A stretch of 64,000 bases of DNA from Desulfitobacterium dehalogenans ATCC 51507 (GTDB taxonomy: Bacteria > Bacillota > Desulfitobacteriia > Desulfitobacteriales > Desulfitobacteriaceae), in the NCBI RefSeq assembly GCF_000243155.2, contig NC_018017.1:2542001-2606000 (forward strand), written 5' to 3'. The first letter of the stretch is position 1; every line of letters begins with the position of its first letter. Positions 18,731 to 26,809 of the stretch are shown here, one piece after another. The translations under genes were made by a program, and so were the position numbers. Under the pieces are notes generated by a model, which worked only from the letters and a program-made list of their open reading frames with translations, did no database searches and was not told the DNA's origin.

Positions 18731-20884
18731 TTACTTTTTGTTTTGGCGTTTTTCTAAGAGCAACTCGGCGGTGTGCTTCACCTTAACTTTGAGGTCCGTT
18801 TGATCCAATCCGCCGTTAATCTGCATTAAGCATCCCGGGCAATCCACAGCGACAACATCCGCCCCGGTCGCTTCAATATTGCGAAGCTTTCTTTCCAGAA
18901 TCGGTCCGGACATCTCCGGGAATTTAATGGAATAGGAGCCTGCAAATCCACAACAACGATCCGACTCATTCATCTCTGTCAGCTCAACGCCTTTGATATT
19001 GGAGAGGATATTCCGGGGTTCCTGAATGACACCCATTTTCCGTCTTAAGTGACAGGAGTCATGATAAGTCACCTTTAAAGGTACTCCGTCTCCCCCTTCC
19101 TCAAGGCCGCCTAAGACCGTCAGAAGCTTGGAGAAGTCCATGGATTTCTTACTAAGTTCTTCAGCACGTTTGAGCATTGCCGGATCGTCGGCAAGAAGTT
19201 CTTTGAAACTGTCAATCAAGGCATGAGTACAGGTGGGGCAAGCAGAAACCACATAATCCACCTTTTCCGCATCCATGGCCTCGATGTTCATAATCGCCGA
19301 TTTGCGGGCATTTTGACGATCGCCCATGTAAGACGCGGGAGCCCCACAACAGGACTGGCCTTCAGGGAAGGTTACTTTATACCCTTTTTCATTGAGAACC
19401 TTTACGACCCCTTCACCAATTTTGGGATAGACAAAGTCCACAAGACAACCGCCAAAAAAGGCAATGGTGCCTTTAGGATTCTTAACATCTTGGTTCATCT
19501 TCTTGATAACATCTCTAAAAGGAACATCCACAATTGTTGGCAAGCTTCTCTTCTCAGTCAGTCCTGACAAGAAGAAGGGTAAATGACGAATGGTGGGCTG
19601 ACCTTTAGAAAAGGGCAGCTGGGCTTTGGAAGCCACTCTCAATAAAGAATGGAAGAGGCGTCGGTTAGAGACCACATCCAGAATGAATTTCTGAGTCATG
19701 GGCAAGCCCTTTTTATCACCGACTCGATTCCGGATCTCCAGGATCATTCCCGGGATATCCAGTTTACCGGCACATACTTCAGTACACTTACCGCATTGAA
19801 GACAAAGGTTTTGCGGATTTTCGGCATCCTTTTCCGAGTTCAGGAACGCAGTGAGAATGGTGCCGATGCCCCCGGTATAAATATGGCCGTAGACATGCCC
19901 GCCCACCAGTTGGAAAGCAGGGCAAACATTTAAGCAGGCAGCGCAGCGGATACACTGGAAAACCTGCTTGAACTGCTCATCAGCATACATTTTCCGGCGT
20001 CCATTATCCATCAGAATAATATGAAATTCTTTATCCTCAAGGGAACCATCGGGATAATAAGTGGGATTAGGGCCTGTAATCATGGTTACGTAGCTGGTAA
20101 TTTGCTGGGCTGTGCCATTCCGGGGCAGGGTCTGCAGGATATACCCCGCATCTTCAAATTTGGGGACAAATTTCTCTATCCCTACCAGAAAAACATGGAC
20201 ACGGGGCCAAGTAGATGTCAAGCGGGCATTTCCCTCATTGGTCATCATCATCAGGGTTCCTGTTTCGGCCACCGCGATATTAGCTCCCGATATTCCCATA
20301 TCGGCCTCGACGAATTTCTTACGCATTTCCTGCCGGGCAGTCTTCACCAATTTGGTGATGACCGGATCACTGGTATAGCTCAGATTATTATTGAAGGTGT
20401 CTGCCACCTGCTCTTTGGTCATGTGGATAGCAGGCATAACCATGTGGGAAGGTCTCTGCCCTGCTAACTGGACGATCCATTCCCCCAAATCCGTCTCTTG
20501 AACATCAAAGCCTTCCTTGAGCAGAGCCGCATTGAGATGGATTTCTTCCGAAGCCATGGATTTGGATTTCACAATATTTTTGACCTTTTGCTGTTTGGCC
20601 AATTCAATAATATACTTTTTGGCATCCTCACCTGTTTCGGCATGAAACACCTTTGCTCCCCGGGAGGTGGCCGCCTTCTCAAACTGCTCAATCATCTCAT
20701 CCAGATGATTGGCAGCATAGCCTTTGGCTTCTACGACTTTTTCACGGAGAGTATCAAAATCATACCCTTGATAAGCCTGCTCCCGGTTTTTGCCATAGAC
20801 ATCCCCGAAACGGCCTAAAGCTCCTCTAAGGATATCATTATCTAAGGCATTCTCGATCTCTTGTTTAAAACGCGCATCAGCCAT
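18731..20884 (-). CDS. LutB-LutA fusion: LUD + ferredoxin + two CCG domains
   Basis: 717 residues, longer than a normal LutB (about 475). Order: LUD domain (about 60-300: KSKSMASEEIHLNAAL; AETGTLMM), two 4Fe-4S motifs (CIRCAACLNVCP near 312 and CLQCGKCTEVC near 360), then two CCG domains (SCCGAP near 515 and CCGFAGSY near 645) of the LutA/GlcF/HdrB kind. LutA and LutB thus are one chain. In B. subtilis LutABC oxidises L-lactate to pyruvate, and CCG subunits also work in glycolate oxidase. It overlaps lutC by eight bases. In this operon glycolate or lactate is the likely donor. Substrate is inferred. Confidence 0.88.
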   Translation of the reverse strand: MADARFKQEIENALDNDILRGALGRFGDVYGKNREQAYQGYDFDTLREKVVEAKGYAANHLDEMIEQFEKAATSRGAKVFHAETGEDAKKYIIELAKQQKVKNIVKSKSMASEEIHLNAALLKEGFDVQETDLGEWIVQLAGQRPSHMVMPAIHMTKEQVADTFNNNLSYTSDPVITKLVKTARQEMRKKFVEADMGISGANIAVAETGTLMMMTNEGNARLTSTWPRVHVFLVGIEKFVPKFEDAGYILQTLPRNGTAQQITSYVTMITGPNPTYYPDGSLEDKEFHIILMDNGRRKMYADEQFKQVFQCIRCAACLNVCPAFQLVGGHVYGHIYTGGIGTILTAFLNSEKDAENPQNLCLQCGKCTEVCAGKLDIPGMILEIRNRVGDKKGLPMTQKFILDVVSNRRLFHSLLRVASKAQLPFSKGQPTIRHLPFFLSGLTEKRSLPTIVDVPFRDVIKKMNQDVKNPKGTIAFFGGCLVDFVYPKIGEGVVKVLNEKGYKVTFPEGQSCCGAPASYMGDRQNARKSAIMNIEAMDAEKVDYVVSACPTCTHALIDSFKELLADDPAMLKRAEELSKKSMDFSKLLTVLGGLEEGGDGVPLKVTYHDSCHLRRKMGVIQEPRNILSNIKGVELTEMNESDRCCGFAGSYSIKFPEMSGPILERKLRNIEATGADVVAVDCPGCLMQINGGLDQTDLKVKVKHTAELLLEKRQNKK

Positions 20885-21452
20885 TGCTTACACCCTCCCC
20901 TGTCTCTTCATCAATAAATATTGCGATCAATTGCTCAGGACCGTGAACGCCGATGGTCAGGACCCGTTCAATATCTGAAGTCCGGCTGGGACCTGTGATA
21001 AAACCAACAAATCCTGGAATTCTGGGCTCCTTATGAACTGTAGCTAAGGCAGTCATAATATCAGGCAACAAGGTAGAGGTCTGAACCAAGGCGATATGTA
21101 TTGGAGTAAATGAGGAGCAAAGCCGTTCATTCACATCCTCTGCATATTGGACTAATGTCCCTAGTTCAGCAATAGCCCATTTCATCTCGGTTATCCCTGC
21201 ACCGACAGTAGGAGTAACTTCCGGATAACGCTCTGTATATACAGTTATCCCTCGATCGGAAAGCTTCTCAGGCAGGCTCATTGCTTTAGCTATGGGGGAA
21301 TTGACCATGGCTACGCTTTCAATTTCTTTTTCTTTCACTATCTGGGCAATTAATTCTTCAGCATCTTTGAGCGTTTTTGCACGATAACACTCGCCAGACA
21401 CAGCTTGGAGCTTAGTCTGAAAACGCTCATATAAAAAATTCATGTCTCCCAT
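20877..21452 (-). CDS. lutC: LutC-like LUD protein
   Basis: About 191 residues. Start ATG 21452 with AGGGG eight bases ahead; a GTG three codons upstream is less likely. LUD fold: EIESVAMVNSPIAKAMSLPEKL, AIAELGTLV, FITGPSRTSDIERVLTIGVHGPE, the last being the LutC/YkgG signature. The third subunit of lactate-utilisation complexes. Its start follows the malic enzyme gene by 249 bp, which include that gene's terminator, so it may have its own promoter, though none was clear. Its end overlaps the LutBA fusion by eight bases, which indicates coupling. Confidence 0.9.
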   Translation of the reverse strand: MGDMNFLYERFQTKLQAVSGECYRAKTLKDAEELIAQIVKEKEIESVAMVNSPIAKAMSLPEKLSDRGITVYTERYPEVTPTVGAGITEMKWAIAELGTLVQYAEDVNERLCSSFTPIHIALVQTSTLLPDIMTALATVHKEPRIPGFVGFITGPSRTSDIERVLTIGVHGPEQLIAIFIDEETGEGVSNG

Positions 21453-21610
21453 CAGGCACACCCCTTCTTCTTTCTCTCTCTAAAAACTTGGGCCCACATT
21501 TACTAATATTATTTGGTCAGGCCACCATGCCAATATGTTACTGCAAAATACAGAAAATTTCAATGTCTTTTTAAAATTTATTATTTAAACCCGAATTAAA
21601 TTTGTATATA

Positions 21611-21701: not shown

Positions 21702-22958
21702 TTATTTATATTGGTTTGCTAATCTCTTTTTGAGATTTTCAGCTACTTCTTGAGGATCCATGGGACGTCTGGCAATACCGGAATCCATTGCCGCTTTAGC
21801 GACTGCCGCAGCTACTGCAGGAGCAACCTCAGGATTGAAGGTGCTGGGAATGATGTAGTCTGCACTAAGTTCTTCATCTTTTACGATGTCGGCAATGGCA
21901 TAAGCAGCTGCAACTTTCATGGCATCATTAATATCGGTTGCCCGAACATCAATAGCTCCGCGGAACATTCCCGGGAAGGCCAGAACGTTGTTGATTTGAT
22001 TGATGACATCAGAACGTCCGGTGGAAATTACTTTGGCGCCGGCTGCAAAGGCTCTCTCAATAGGCCAGATTTCCGGTATTGGATTAGCCTGGCAGAAGAC
22101 GATGGGATCTTTAGCCATGGAACGAATCATATCTTCATTGAGGACATTAGCTGCAGAGATTCCGATAAAAGCATCTGCTCCTACTAAAGCACCGGCAAGA
22201 TCTCCGCTGTATTTCTCTGGGTTGGTTGCTTTGGCAATCTCTTCTTTCCAACGGTTCATACCTTCAGCACGACCCTCGTAAATAGCACCTTTTGTATCGC
22301 ACATGATAACATTTTTCAGGCCCATGCTCATAAGAAGCTTGATGATAGCGATGCCGGCTGCACCTGCACCATTGGCGACAACTTTAATGTCTTCGATTTT
22401 CTTGCCCACAACTTTTAGAGCATTGATCAAGCCAGCTAAGGTTACTACAGCGGTTCCGTGTTGATCATCGTGAAAGATCGGGCCTTTGAAGATTCCGCGG
22501 GTTTTAAGTTTTTCTTCGATATCAAAGCACTCTGGAGCTTTGATATCTTCCAAGTTAACGCCACCGAAGGTGGGTGCGGTTAATTCAACGATCTCAACAA
22601 TTTTATCCACATCTGTAGTGTTTACGCAAAGAGGAAATGCGTCAACATCTCCAAACGCTTTGAAGAGAAGTGATTTTCCTTCCATAACAGGCATGGATGC
22701 CGCGGCACCCAGATTGCCAAGGCCTAATATAGCCGTTCCATTAGAAACAATGCTGACATAGTTGGCATGATTGGTGTAGATATCAAGATTTTCTAGATTT
22801 TCGGCAATTTCCTTGACAGGCTCTGCCACTCCTGGAGAGTAGGCAAGTGTAAGGTCATCCCGGTCTTTGGCTGGGACAGTAACACGTACTTCAAGTTTAC
22901 CCGGTTGCACTTTGTGGAATTCTAAAGCCTCTTCACGTAAGTTTTTAATACGACTCAT
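21702..22958 (-). CDS. NAD-type malic enzyme
   Basis: 418 residues, the size of the short bacterial malic enzymes. Converts malate + NAD(P) to pyruvate + CO2 + NAD(P)H. The N-terminal domain has AYSPGVAEPVKEI and SNGTAILGLGNLG, the active-site region KIVEIVELTAPTFGGVNLEDI, the HDDQHGTAVV metal/catalytic block near 160, and a Rossmann GAGAAGIAI near 192. It lies after mcl in the malyl-CoA cluster, where it would remove the malate released from malyl-CoA, giving pyruvate for reoxidation to acetyl-CoA. A hairpin without a U-run separates it from mcl. Confidence 0.93.
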   Translation of the reverse strand: MSRIKNLREEALEFHKVQPGKLEVRVTVPAKDRDDLTLAYSPGVAEPVKEIAENLENLDIYTNHANYVSIVSNGTAILGLGNLGAAASMPVMEGKSLLFKAFGDVDAFPLCVNTTDVDKIVEIVELTAPTFGGVNLEDIKAPECFDIEEKLKTRGIFKGPIFHDDQHGTAVVTLAGLINALKVVGKKIEDIKVVANGAGAAGIAIIKLLMSMGLKNVIMCDTKGAIYEGRAEGMNRWKEEIAKATNPEKYSGDLAGALVGADAFIGISAANVLNEDMIRSMAKDPIVFCQANPIPEIWPIERAFAAGAKVISTGRSDVINQINNVLAFPGMFRGAIDVRATDINDAMKVAAAYAIADIVKDEELSADYIIPSTFNPEVAPAVAAAVAKAAMDSGIARRPMDPQEVAENLKKRLANQYK

Positions 22959-23143: not shown

Positions 23144-24031
23144 TTATTTGCCGGCATTTTTAGCATCAATTTCAGCTTGAGACGCTAAGATATCCTTTGC
23201 ATTAAGATAAACAGGGGTGTCTACCATTTTTCCATTTAAGGAAACGGCAGCTTTACCTTTGGCCAGACCTTCTTCTTCAAAGACCTTAACTACATCTTGA
23301 GCCCATTTAACATCAGCAGGATCTGGAGCATACAGTCTGTTGGAAGGTTCAACTTGTCCTGGGTGAATGATCATGCGACCTTCATAGCCCATTTGTTTAC
23401 CTTCGGCAACGTTCTTTTCAAAGGCAGGGATATTGGCGTAATCAACGAAAGGAGCGTCGATAGCAACGATTCCGGCAGCACGGCATGCTACTCCGACTTT
23501 TGAACGGCCATATTGTTGCTCAACCGCTTCATTTGTTATTTTAACACGCATGTCACGGCAATAGTCAACAGCACCAAAGATAGCATTGACATTGCGCTTG
23601 CTGGCTAAGCAGCATTCTTCAGCGTTAGCAATACCTTTAGCAGTTTCAAGAAGCATGGAAATTTTTACAGTTCCAACAGGAATTCCGCGACGCATTTCCA
23701 ACTCTTCCAGTTTCCACTCCAGGCGTTGTACGTCGGCTGCACAACCGGTTTTAGCTAAGGTAACGCCATGGAGGCCAGGCCATACAATAGCTTCTAAGTC
23801 ATCATTAGTTAAGCCGGTTTCCCAGTTATTGAGACGAACAAATACTTGGGCGCCACCAGTGGCACCATATTCTAAATTTTCTCTTACGATCTGACGAGCT
23901 GCTTCTTTTTCCGCAGGTGGTACAGCATCTTCTAAATCGAAGGTAATGATGTCGGCAGGAATTTCAGGTGCTTTAGCCACCATTTTAGGATTGTTTCCGG
24001 GAATGTACATAACGGATCTCATAACAGCCAT
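23144..24031 (-). CDS. CitE-family lyase, probable malyl-CoA lyase
   Basis: 295 residues. HpcH/HpaI (CitE) fold: RSVMYIPGNNPKMVAKA, IITFDLEDAVPPAEK, FVRLNN, MLLETAKGIANAEE, FGAVDYCRDM. CitE itself is the citrate lyase beta subunit, but no citrate lyase alpha or acyl-carrier gene is near, and the neighbours are malate-CoA ligase subunits and malic enzyme, so malyl-CoA lyase (malyl-CoA to glyoxylate + acetyl-CoA, reversible) is the better reading. Direction in the cell is inferred to be toward malyl-CoA when glyoxylate is the substrate. Flanked on both sides by hairpins. Confidence 0.85.
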   Translation of the reverse strand: MAVMRSVMYIPGNNPKMVAKAPEIPADIITFDLEDAVPPAEKEAARQIVRENLEYGATGGAQVFVRLNNWETGLTNDDLEAIVWPGLHGVTLAKTGCAADVQRLEWKLEELEMRRGIPVGTVKISMLLETAKGIANAEECCLASKRNVNAIFGAVDYCRDMRVKITNEAVEQQYGRSKVGVACRAAGIVAIDAPFVDYANIPAFEKNVAEGKQMGYEGRMIIHPGQVEPSNRLYAPDPADVKWAQDVVKVFEEEGLAKGKAAVSLNGKMVDTPVYLNAKDILASQAEIDAKNAGK

Positions 24032-24256: not shown

Positions 24257-25153
24257 TTATTTACCTAATTTTTCTTTTAGGATCAAGGGAATATCTGTCG
24301 GTCTTTCAGCTACAAATCCACCGGCTTGGGTGATTGCTTCCATCTTGCTCTTTGCAGAACCGCGGCCACGCTCAACGATATTAGAAGCATGGGAGAAGCG
24401 TTGACCTTCCGGAGCCCAGGCACCGGCTACATAGATTACAAAAGGCTTGGTGAATTTACCGGCTGCGATAACTTCAGCACATTCTTCTTCCTGGGATCCA
24501 CCGATTTCTGCGTAAACCGCTACGCCATGGGTATCAGGGTCTTCTTCAAAGAAGGGCAAGAGATCAGCCATGGAGGTACCAAGAACAGGCTCTGTTCCGG
24601 TGTGAATGACAGTACTGACGCCAAATCCACCTTCTCTAAGCACCCAGGGAATAGTTCCTGATTGCCCGCCGCTGCGTGAAAATACACCGATGTGACCTTT
24701 TTGGAAGAATTTATTAGCCCACTCCACGTTGCCGCCAAGCCATCCGACTACGGCTTCTCCCGGAGTGAGAATACCAATGGAACCCGGTCCAATCAATCTT
24801 GAACCTTTAGCCTTTGCATAAGCGATCATTTCCATAATGTCATGAATAGGAGTGCCTTCTACGCAGGGAATAATATTCTTAACCCCAGCGTCGGCGGCTT
24901 CCATAACAGCTGTTTTCAAAGCACTTCCCGGTACGAAAATTACACTGAAGTCGATATCACCCTGTTCGCGGACAATTTCCTTAACAGTATTAAATACCGG
25001 AACACTGTGAACTTCTTGTCCTGATTTTCCGGGACTTGTTCCACCGATCAGATTCGTACCATAGTCTTTCATATACTTTGTCCGCACCGAACCTTCCCGT
25101 CCGGTAATTCCTTGGACAATCACTTTGGTCTCATTATTGATCAAAATGCCCAT
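24257..25153 (-). CDS. Malate-CoA ligase alpha-type subunit (SucD-like)
   Basis: 298 residues, the usual SucD length. CoA-binding Rossmann domain (TKVIVQGITGREGSVRTKYM), then TSPGKSG and VPGSALKTAVMEA. The ligase domain has SRSGGQSGTIPWVL and GTSMADLLPFF; the phosphorylated His is in FSHASNI near 260. It is in the SucD/MtkB group: NDP-forming CoA ligase. In this context the pair likely links malate and CoA (malate thiokinase), not succinate. The N-terminus carries the unusual GREGSVRT. A small ferredoxin-like gene stands between it and the beta-type subunit. Confidence 0.85.
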   Translation of the reverse strand: MGILINNETKVIVQGITGREGSVRTKYMKDYGTNLIGGTSPGKSGQEVHSVPVFNTVKEIVREQGDIDFSVIFVPGSALKTAVMEAADAGVKNIIPCVEGTPIHDIMEMIAYAKAKGSRLIGPGSIGILTPGEAVVGWLGGNVEWANKFFQKGHIGVFSRSGGQSGTIPWVLREGGFGVSTVIHTGTEPVLGTSMADLLPFFEEDPDTHGVAVYAEIGGSQEEECAEVIAAGKFTKPFVIYVAGAWAPEGQRFSHASNIVERGRGSAKSKMEAITQAGGFVAERPTDIPLILKEKLGK

Positions 25154-25234: not shown

Positions 25235-25522
25235 TCAGGCACGTTTTGCAATATATTCGTCCAAACCGGTTACAGGAACTTCAATCGTAATTGCATTATT
25301 GCCGCGGAATTTACAAGCAAATTCACAGGCCAGACATTCCGTACCAAGACGAAGAACTTCTTCCTCAGTACGATGAGCTACTGAAGCTTTGCCTTGATCG
25401 TCTATTCCAAGCAACCCTCTCGCATACTTTTTGCAGGCGTCTGCACATGCTTTTGTTTGGCATGTATCACACTTGCTGGTATCGATTGTGATTTTGCAAC
25501 TTTTTTCAGCGAATTCCAGCAC
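25235..25522 (-). CDS. Ferredoxin-like cysteine-rich protein, 95 aa
   Basis: 95 residues, GTG start at 25522. Eight cysteines, seven of them in two groups: C-x2-C-x4-C-x3-C at 18, 21, 26, 30 and C-x2-C-x3-C at 63, 66, 70, with one more at 9. That is the pattern of a two-cluster ferredoxin, though it is not the classic 2[4Fe-4S] spacing. It sits exactly between the two CoA-ligase subunit genes (10 bp after the first), so it should be made in equal amounts and may be a subunit. No CoA ligase is known to me to need such a protein. Function unknown. Confidence 0.75.
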   Translation of the reverse strand: MLEFAEKSCKITIDTSKCDTCQTKACADACKKYARGLLGIDDQGKASVAHRTEEEVLRLGTECLACEFACKFRGNNAITIEVPVTGLDEYIAKRA

Positions 25523-25531
25523 GTTATTTCC

Positions 25532-26809
25532 CTACTTTCCTTGAGCTTCTTTCTCAGCCCGATAGTCTTTGCTCAGGGCTAAGAGTCTTTCACCAATGAA
25601 CTTCGTATCGGTTACATATTCTTTTCCATAAATCTCAATTCTTTTTCCCGGTCCGTCACTGGTCATAAGATCAGCCAGGCCCGTTCTAAGAATTTCCAGA
25701 GATTCATCTTCCCGGTTACCACAAAGCAGGAGAACACAAGGCAGTCCTGGTTTTTGGGTCGGAAGGATTTCACGAAGAACTTTGACTATGGCATGAGCAT
25801 GATGCCATTGTTCTTGGTTGGCCATCATGAAGCCCCCAAGGAGATATCCGTCAATATTGGGTTGAGAAAGTACCGATTTGGCTACACGATAGATTTTGGA
25901 GGCTACAGGGTTACCACTGGTGTCAGCATAGTTGGCCGGCTTCAGACCCACTTGATTGAGGGCGTCCAAGCCCATCATGGCAGAACCGCCGCCGATGGGA
26001 TGATAGCCAATGTATCCGGGGCTGACTTCATCATATCCCATATTCATTAGGAAGCCGGTACCACGGGCATCCGTTTCTTCAATGCTCCAACCGATGTAGT
26101 CCAACTCAGTGGGCTCACCAGGCAGATCGCGGGCAATGTCAAAACCGAACTCTGGATGACGACCTACTGAACTGTTGTCGATTTCCATCTTACAGTCAGC
26201 ACAGATGAGGTTTCCATTCCCTGTCATAACGAAGGGGTTAATCTCAAGCGTCATGCAATCGTATTTCTTATAAGTTTGAGAAAGTTTCGTCAAAAATTTA
26301 GCAAACTTTGTTAATTCTTCCGGAGCAACTCCTGCTTTAGCAGCCAAGTCCACTGCATCATAAGTCTGAAGTCCATTGATCGGGTCCACATTGATCTTCA
26401 GCAATTGCTCTTCCGGAACACTTTCGATATCCATACCGCCTTCAAGACTAAACATAAGCATTGGCGAGCGGGCTTCTCTTGCTCCGTTAACAACAAAAGA
26501 GCAATAGAATTCTTTTTTGATATCCAGCTTTTCTTCCACAAGAACTGTGCGCACCGGTAGACCTTTAACTGTTTTGGAGAGAATTTCAGCAGCAGCTGCT
26601 GCTGCTTCATCAGGAGTGTTAACCAGTTTAACAATTCCTGCTTTACCACGACCACCCGCTTGTACTTGACCTTTTACTGCAACAGGCCCGCCAATCCATT
26701 CAGCAATTTCTTTTGCTTCCTCGGGGGTCGATGCCGGACGACCCTTGGGTACCGGCATTCCTGCTTTTGCAAGCCATTCTTTACCTTGATACTCTAGAAA
26801 TCTTGCCAT
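25532..26809 (-). CDS. Malate-CoA ligase beta-type subunit (SucC-like)
   Basis: 425 residues, about 35 longer than E. coli SucC. ATP-grasp domain at the start (FLEYQGKEWLAKAGMPVPKG; VKGQVQAGGRGKAG) and EEKLDIKKEFYCSFVV, then the MTLEINPFVMTGNG metal site, the DCKMEIDNS block and a CoA-ligase domain (GGGSAMMGLDALNQVG). ATG 26809 after AAGGGA. The first gene of the operon. With the SucD-like partner it forms the ligase. Distinguishing malate from succinate is not possible from the sequence by eye; the assignment rests on the lyase and malic enzyme genes downstream. Confidence 0.85.
   Translation of the reverse strand: MARFLEYQGKEWLAKAGMPVPKGRPASTPEEAKEIAEWIGGPVAVKGQVQAGGRGKAGIVKLVNTPDEAAAAAAEILSKTVKGLPVRTVLVEEKLDIKKEFYCSFVVNGAREARSPMLMFSLEGGMDIESVPEEQLLKINVDPINGLQTYDAVDLAAKAGVAPEELTKFAKFLTKLSQTYKKYDCMTLEINPFVMTGNGNLICADCKMEIDNSSVGRHPEFGFDIARDLPGEPTELDYIGWSIEETDARGTGFLMNMGYDEVSPGYIGYHPIGGGSAMMGLDALNQVGLKPANYADTSGNPVASKIYRVAKSVLSQPNIDGYLLGGFMMANQEQWHHAHAIVKVLREILPTQKPGLPCVLLLCGNREDESLEILRTGLADLMTSDGPGKRIEIYGKEYVTDTKFIGERLLALSKDYRAEKEAQGK

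Follow-up and report, generated by a model that had tools for sequence, protein, structure and literature searches.

The locus described here raises the question of what a ferredoxin-like protein (Fdx) contributes to a CoA ligase between whose two subunit genes it is encoded. Textbooks treat ATP-forming CoA ligases of this fold as redox-neutral enzymes of two subunits, and ligase chemistry of this type needs no electrons. The window, which is the whole stretch of 64,000 nucleotides of Desulfitobacterium dehalogenans ATCC 51507 that was analysed, belongs to a genome of a single contig (4,321,753 bases) and carries a co-directional run of genes in the order SucC-like, Fdx, SucD-like, CitE-like, malic enzyme, LutC-like and LdhH. 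The features of this run, with the evidence for each in brackets, are as follows.

25532..26809, - strand: SucC-like beta subunit (ATP-grasp) of an ADP-forming CoA ligase (Pfam, AF2 model match)
25235..25522, - strand: Fdx, ferredoxin-like, 95 aa (ORF, conservation, dN/dS, AF2 model with pLDDT 87)
24257..25153, - strand: SucD-like alpha subunit with CoA_binding and Ligase_CoA domains (Pfam, aligned His)
23144..24031, - strand: CitE-like HpcH/HpaI lyase, probable malyl-CoA lyase (Pfam; best PDB match 5ugr)
21702..22958, - strand: malic enzyme, 418 aa (PF00390 and PF03949 over cut-off)
20877..21461, - strand: LutC-like protein with a LUD domain, adjoining in certain relatives only (Pfam)
18731..20884, - strand: LdhH, large subunit of L-lactate dehydrogenase (quinone), adjoining in certain relatives only (NCBIfam)

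The 95-codon Fdx gene is genuine and conserved. Its frame opens with a GTG codon 9 nt past the SucC-like stop, and 81 nt separate its end from the SucD-like start, an arrangement that places it exactly between the two genes as the preliminary description had it. The eight cysteines counted there, seven of them in two groups, were found at positions 9, 18, 21, 26, 30, 63, 66 and 70. A chance or spurious frame was ruled out because dN/dS was low in pairwise comparisons with five relatives (0.037, 0.134, 0.040, 0.037 and 0.094, with no value obtainable from a sixth) and because the gene order is kept. The preliminary description had let its reading stand or fall with a neighbourhood shared by relatives, and in all 53 distinct Fdx ORFs the gene was observed to lie between SucC-like and SucD-like genes on the same strand, mostly 9-10 nt from the SucC stop.

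By its Pfam domains and an aligned histidine of the alpha subunit, the flanking pair fits a succinyl-CoA synthetase-like (ADP-forming) CoA ligase. The beta subunit matches PF08442 with 175.5 bits (cut-off 29.5) while the alpha subunit matches PF02629 with 80.2 bits (22.3) and PF00549 with 34.7 bits (24.5). The histidine of the RFSHAS sequence in the SucD-like protein aligns with that of the GHAGA-type loop of relatives, and we take it to be the histidine of the phospho-histidine loop in the alpha subunit. The AF2 model of the SucC-like protein clearly matches the beta subunit of Thermus SCS (E 2.4e-36) and Hydrogenobacter citryl-CoA synthetase (E 5.3e-32). Scores with the NCBIfam models of succinate-CoA ligase were below cut-off for both beta (241.2 of 370, PRK00696.1) and alpha (270.7 of 336, PRK05678.1), and the SucC-like protein also stayed below the cut-off of the malate-CoA ligase beta model (PRK14046; 175.2 bits, cut-off 604), so that the name sucCD-like is apt and sucCD is not. 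Ordinary succinyl-CoA synthetase was rejected as a confident label on account of the low scores of both subunits and of the adjoining lyase and malic enzyme. It may still be an extra activity, since the SucC-like gene is the sole PF08442 (SucC-type ATP-grasp) match over cut-off in the source genome. Succinyl-CoA synthetase, malate-CoA ligase (MtkAB) and citryl-CoA synthetase (CcsAB) share with the window pair their SucC/SucD-like subunits and Pfam domains, whereas the window pair is set apart by the ferredoxin-like gene between its subunits and by its sub-threshold succinate-CoA and malate-CoA scores. The pair thus appears to be a known kind of enzyme and what is new would be its iron-sulfur partner; a search of the open-access literature found no description of an iron-sulfur subunit or partner for such a ligase.

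Fdx was present in 40 of 61 near relatives and, across the class, in 46 of 82 genomes, and strong matches (E<=1e-25) were obtained in 18 of 393 genomes sampled across the phylum. When SucC homologues from 398 phylum genomes were ranked by score, the top 18 all had an adjoining Fdx; G018 was left out because only the first 106 residues of its SucC, of the Fdx-bearing type, were readable. In the next tier of homologues (about 34-37% identity; 11 loci, L140-L150) SucD comes immediately after SucC, and no Fdx was found in frames of at least 50 codons. Both kinds of ligase, with and without Fdx, occur together in the genomes G189 and G419. The eight representative Fdx-bearing rows of the SucC tree (28 rows, 23 different) form one side of a branch with support of 100/98, and the SucD tree agrees on this group but weakly (65/69). 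By eye, the Fdx-less sister pairs were seen to lie mostly beside a CitE-like gene and also beside MmgE/PrpD-like or TRAP-transporter genes. As most of these Fdx-less loci do adjoin a CitE-like gene, the link to a lyase alone does not call for Fdx.

Seven cysteines (C18, C21, C26, C30, C63, C66 and C70) are invariant in all 40 aligned Fdx relatives, even at 27-30% identity, whereas Cys9 is a cysteine in only eight of the 40. They form the motifs C18-x2-C21-x4-C26-x3-C30 and C63-x2-C66-x3-C70. A 2[4Fe-4S] ferredoxin has eight ligand cysteines in two CxxCxxCxxxC-type motifs, and with seven invariant cysteines Fdx falls short of this. Position 60, three residues before C63, is glycine in 38 of the 40 relatives, invariantly so in the clade of the window's Fdx, and cysteine in the other two (L103 and L104). 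These two most diverged members have two full motifs with all eight ligand cysteines, and the window's clade would then have lost the first cysteine of the second motif by a change from Cys to Gly60, if this is the direction of change. Cysteines of two-cluster ferredoxins are usually assigned to sites by the crossed-ligand rule. Under this rule Cys18, Cys21, Cys26 and Cys70 would hold a complete [4Fe-4S] cluster, while Cys30, Cys63 and Cys66 would form a second site that the glycine leaves with three cysteines, suited to a [3Fe-4S] cluster or to a [4Fe-4S] cluster with one open iron. A fourth ligand from a cysteine of SucC or SucD was ruled out, as the alignments contain no extra invariant cysteine that is common to the SucC and SucD rows with Fdx and absent from those without it.

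No Pfam or NCBIfam model matches Fdx over cut-off; the best Pfam E-value is 0.031 and the best score in the Fer4 family is 14.7 bits (Fer4_6, cut-off 25). Searches by sequence found no convincing solved relative (best E 0.068, unrelated molecules) and no PHROGs match (best E 0.14), and a plasmid search gave no match to the window's Fdx or to that of L104. The best of five AlphaFold models has a pLDDT of 87 (range 61-87) and resembles ferredoxins only modestly, with Foldseek matches to 4ov1 (E 0.061) and then to the [3Fe-4S] ferredoxin 4id8 (E 0.075) and a best VIA Z of 7.4, which is within the range where common arrangements also score. Any likeness to 2[4Fe-4S] and [3Fe-4S]-type bacterial ferredoxins would lie in this predicted fold, with an E-value of 0.061 at best. 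Fdx differs from them in being longer (95 against 65-66 residues), in its seven conserved ligand cysteines, in being found at one locus type only and in having no Pfam ferredoxin model over cut-off. The weak matches to the Fdx profile in the phylum sample (E 3e-6 to 0.01) were other ferredoxins where inspected, including the FixX type and, by eye, a type from benzoyl-CoA-reductase clusters. Over part of its length, the window's Fdx shares 35% identity with a FixX-like protein encoded in an ETF operon. FixX of FixABCX (ETF) is like Fdx in size, in the CxxCx4CxxxC first motif and in a detectable profile match, but the window's Fdx is flanked by ligase subunits with no ETF genes adjoining, and the main Fdx clade has Gly60 where the FixX of L105 has a cysteine.

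The neighbours of the trio were surveyed in 37 loci, some of them short, which reduce to 36 distinct loci since L007 and L053 are the same contig. A CitE-like gene was observed beside the trio in 28 of the 36. The CitE-like lyase of the window contains an HpcH_HpaI domain (PF03328, 153.5 bits, cut-off 25) and its best PDB match, 5ugr, is a malyl-CoA/beta-methylmalyl-CoA lyase; it scores below the NCBIfam equivalogs for citE (205.3 of 443.4) and for haloarchaeal malyl-CoA lyase (79.3 of 500). The malic enzyme reaches 403 bits with PRK12861, below the cut-off of 1178. Its counterparts in relatives are 80-100% identical to it in one group and 56-65% in another (L007-L010, L053, L058 and L096-L102), which suggests that the malic enzyme was replaced within a fixed operon while the trio stayed. 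Neither CitE nor malic enzyme adjoins the trio in L049-L052, L055 and L056, and the pathway link there rests elsewhere or fails.

Redox genes adjoin the trio in 11 of the 36 distinct loci, six with GlcF-, GlcE- and GlcD-like genes directly upstream of SucC and five with LutC-LdhH. In the other 25, several of which are short, the search of the surroundings found no gene for oxidising glycolate or lactate. The three GlcF/E/D-like genes of L003 score below the NCBIfam equivalog cut-offs; LdhH of the window scores 1111 bits against a cut-off of 800. The LutC-like and LdhH genes (18731-21461) follow the operon in the window and in four other loci. The two sets look like interchangeable modules for 2-hydroxyacid oxidation attached to one common core.

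The two most diverged trios have other partners. In L104 (3864-11536) the trio is accompanied by a citryl-CoA lyase scoring over cut-off, by fumarase-like subunits and by a methylaspartate ammonia-lyase, and this cluster looks like a mesaconate/citramalate branch of glutamate fermentation with a citryl-CoA-lyase-type enzyme acting on a CoA thioester. In L103 (5545-10752) it lies beside LeuC/LeuD-like subunits and an HMG-CoA lyase that likewise scores over cut-off, and the ligase substrate there is perhaps a branched hydroxydicarboxylate. Across these loci the ligase could form a hydroxyacid CoA thioester that a lyase then splits.

Glyoxylate oxidation by the malyl-CoA route would fit the window's own cluster. 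According to PMC8092247, Syntrophobotulus glycolicus was proposed to metabolise glyoxylate through malyl-CoA, and the same paper reports this route for Moorella sp. HUC22-1 too. This pathway resembles the window in that its ligase, CitE-like lyase and malic enzyme genes are clustered, whereas an iron-sulfur partner of its ligase was not found reported in the open-access literature. The five genes SucC-Fdx-SucD-CitE-malic enzyme were also observed in the relative G043 (L046), which has only one SucC match at 1e-30, and in the f16/g39 genomes. GlcD-type flavoproteins occur elsewhere in the source genome, none of them over the GlcD cut-off. Malyl-CoA chemistry in glyoxylate/glycolate oxidation appears to be the likeliest setting of the window's cluster in view of the S. 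glycolicus proposal, the five-gene clusters, the sole SucC and the Glc-like genes upstream of it elsewhere, and from this genomic context malate is most likely the ligase substrate.

We propose, with a probability of roughly 0.6, that SucC, Fdx and SucD make up one hydroxyacid-CoA ligase in which Fdx is an iron-sulfur gamma subunit, probably stabilising or redox-gating the enzyme. Fdx would be a dedicated third subunit physically bound to the alpha and beta subunits of the ADP-forming ligase. In the window, the CitE-like lyase would form malyl-CoA from acetyl-CoA and glyoxylate, the ligase would convert malyl-CoA, ADP and Pi to malate, CoA and ATP, and the malic enzyme would convert malate to pyruvate and CO2. 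Since the ligase chemistry is redox-neutral, Fdx would not be a reactant, and the simplest account of so strictly linked an iron-sulfur protein is a non-catalytic subunit that stabilises the complex or may gate it by redox state. The related malate-CoA and succinyl-CoA ligases function as two-subunit enzymes, hence a third is not required by the chemistry. The conserved gene order can also reflect regulation instead of binding.

The preliminary description had left a choice between a third subunit, an electron carrier and a redox switch. A subunit or dedicated partner of the ligase is favoured, because the ligase link holds even where no glycolate or lactate genes were found nearby and with differing lyases, and the carrier has become the weaker option. 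FixX is an electron-transfer protein, and the partial identity of Fdx to a FixX-like protein, its ferredoxin-like predicted fold and the redox genes that adjoin about a third of the trios are what a free carrier would lead one to expect if it served the oxidative steps of the pathway (glycolate/lactate dehydrogenase, malic enzyme or pyruvate oxidation) and owed its position to co-regulation. Such a carrier accounts less well for a gene that sits inside the ligase pair in 53 of 53 cases, that stays there when the pathway partner is a citryl-CoA lyase or an HMG-CoA lyase and when redox genes were not found nearby (25 loci, some short), and whose main clade is without one ligand cysteine; we therefore consider this role unlikely.

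A ligase that needs no electrons and a three-cysteine second site that could make a labile cluster would both suit a redox or oxygen switch, by which Fdx would bind the ligase transiently and shut it when the clusters are oxidised. However, the most diverged Fdx proteins, those of L103 and L104, keep all eight cysteines and a labile site is thus not a family-wide trait, so a switch of this kind seems improbable. Iron-sulfur clusters can also be structural, and in most loci no more than about 10 nt lie between the SucC stop and the Fdx start, which would suit a protein that helps the ligase to assemble or fold, or a subunit of structural use alone with a fold-holding cluster. Sister ligases of the same fold have no Fdx, and we consider this role very unlikely. 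Within the preferred reading of Fdx as a gamma subunit, a more speculative and rather doubtful suggestion is that the Fdx-bearing clade acquired the subunit once and that the open iron left by the change to Gly60 in the malate lineage senses redox state, or even binds the hydroxyacid in the manner of the aconitase iron, linking the ATP that the malyl-CoA route forms at substrate level to the anaerobe's redox state.

If Fdx is such a subunit, dehalogenating, sulfate-reducing and syntrophic anaerobes may have placed an energy-conserving step under redox control, and gene annotations showing an orphan ferredoxin between sucC and sucD would need correction.

The SucC gene of L102 (6222-7484) has an in-frame TAG at codon 80 although the surrounding genes look intact, which may be a sequencing error, a pseudogene or recoding. 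The in-frame TAG at codon 418 of some f16 SucC genes simply represents an earlier stop, and an internal TAG is confined to L102. Finally, genome G013 was found to carry two SucC-Fdx-SucD trios on different contigs (L028 and L053).
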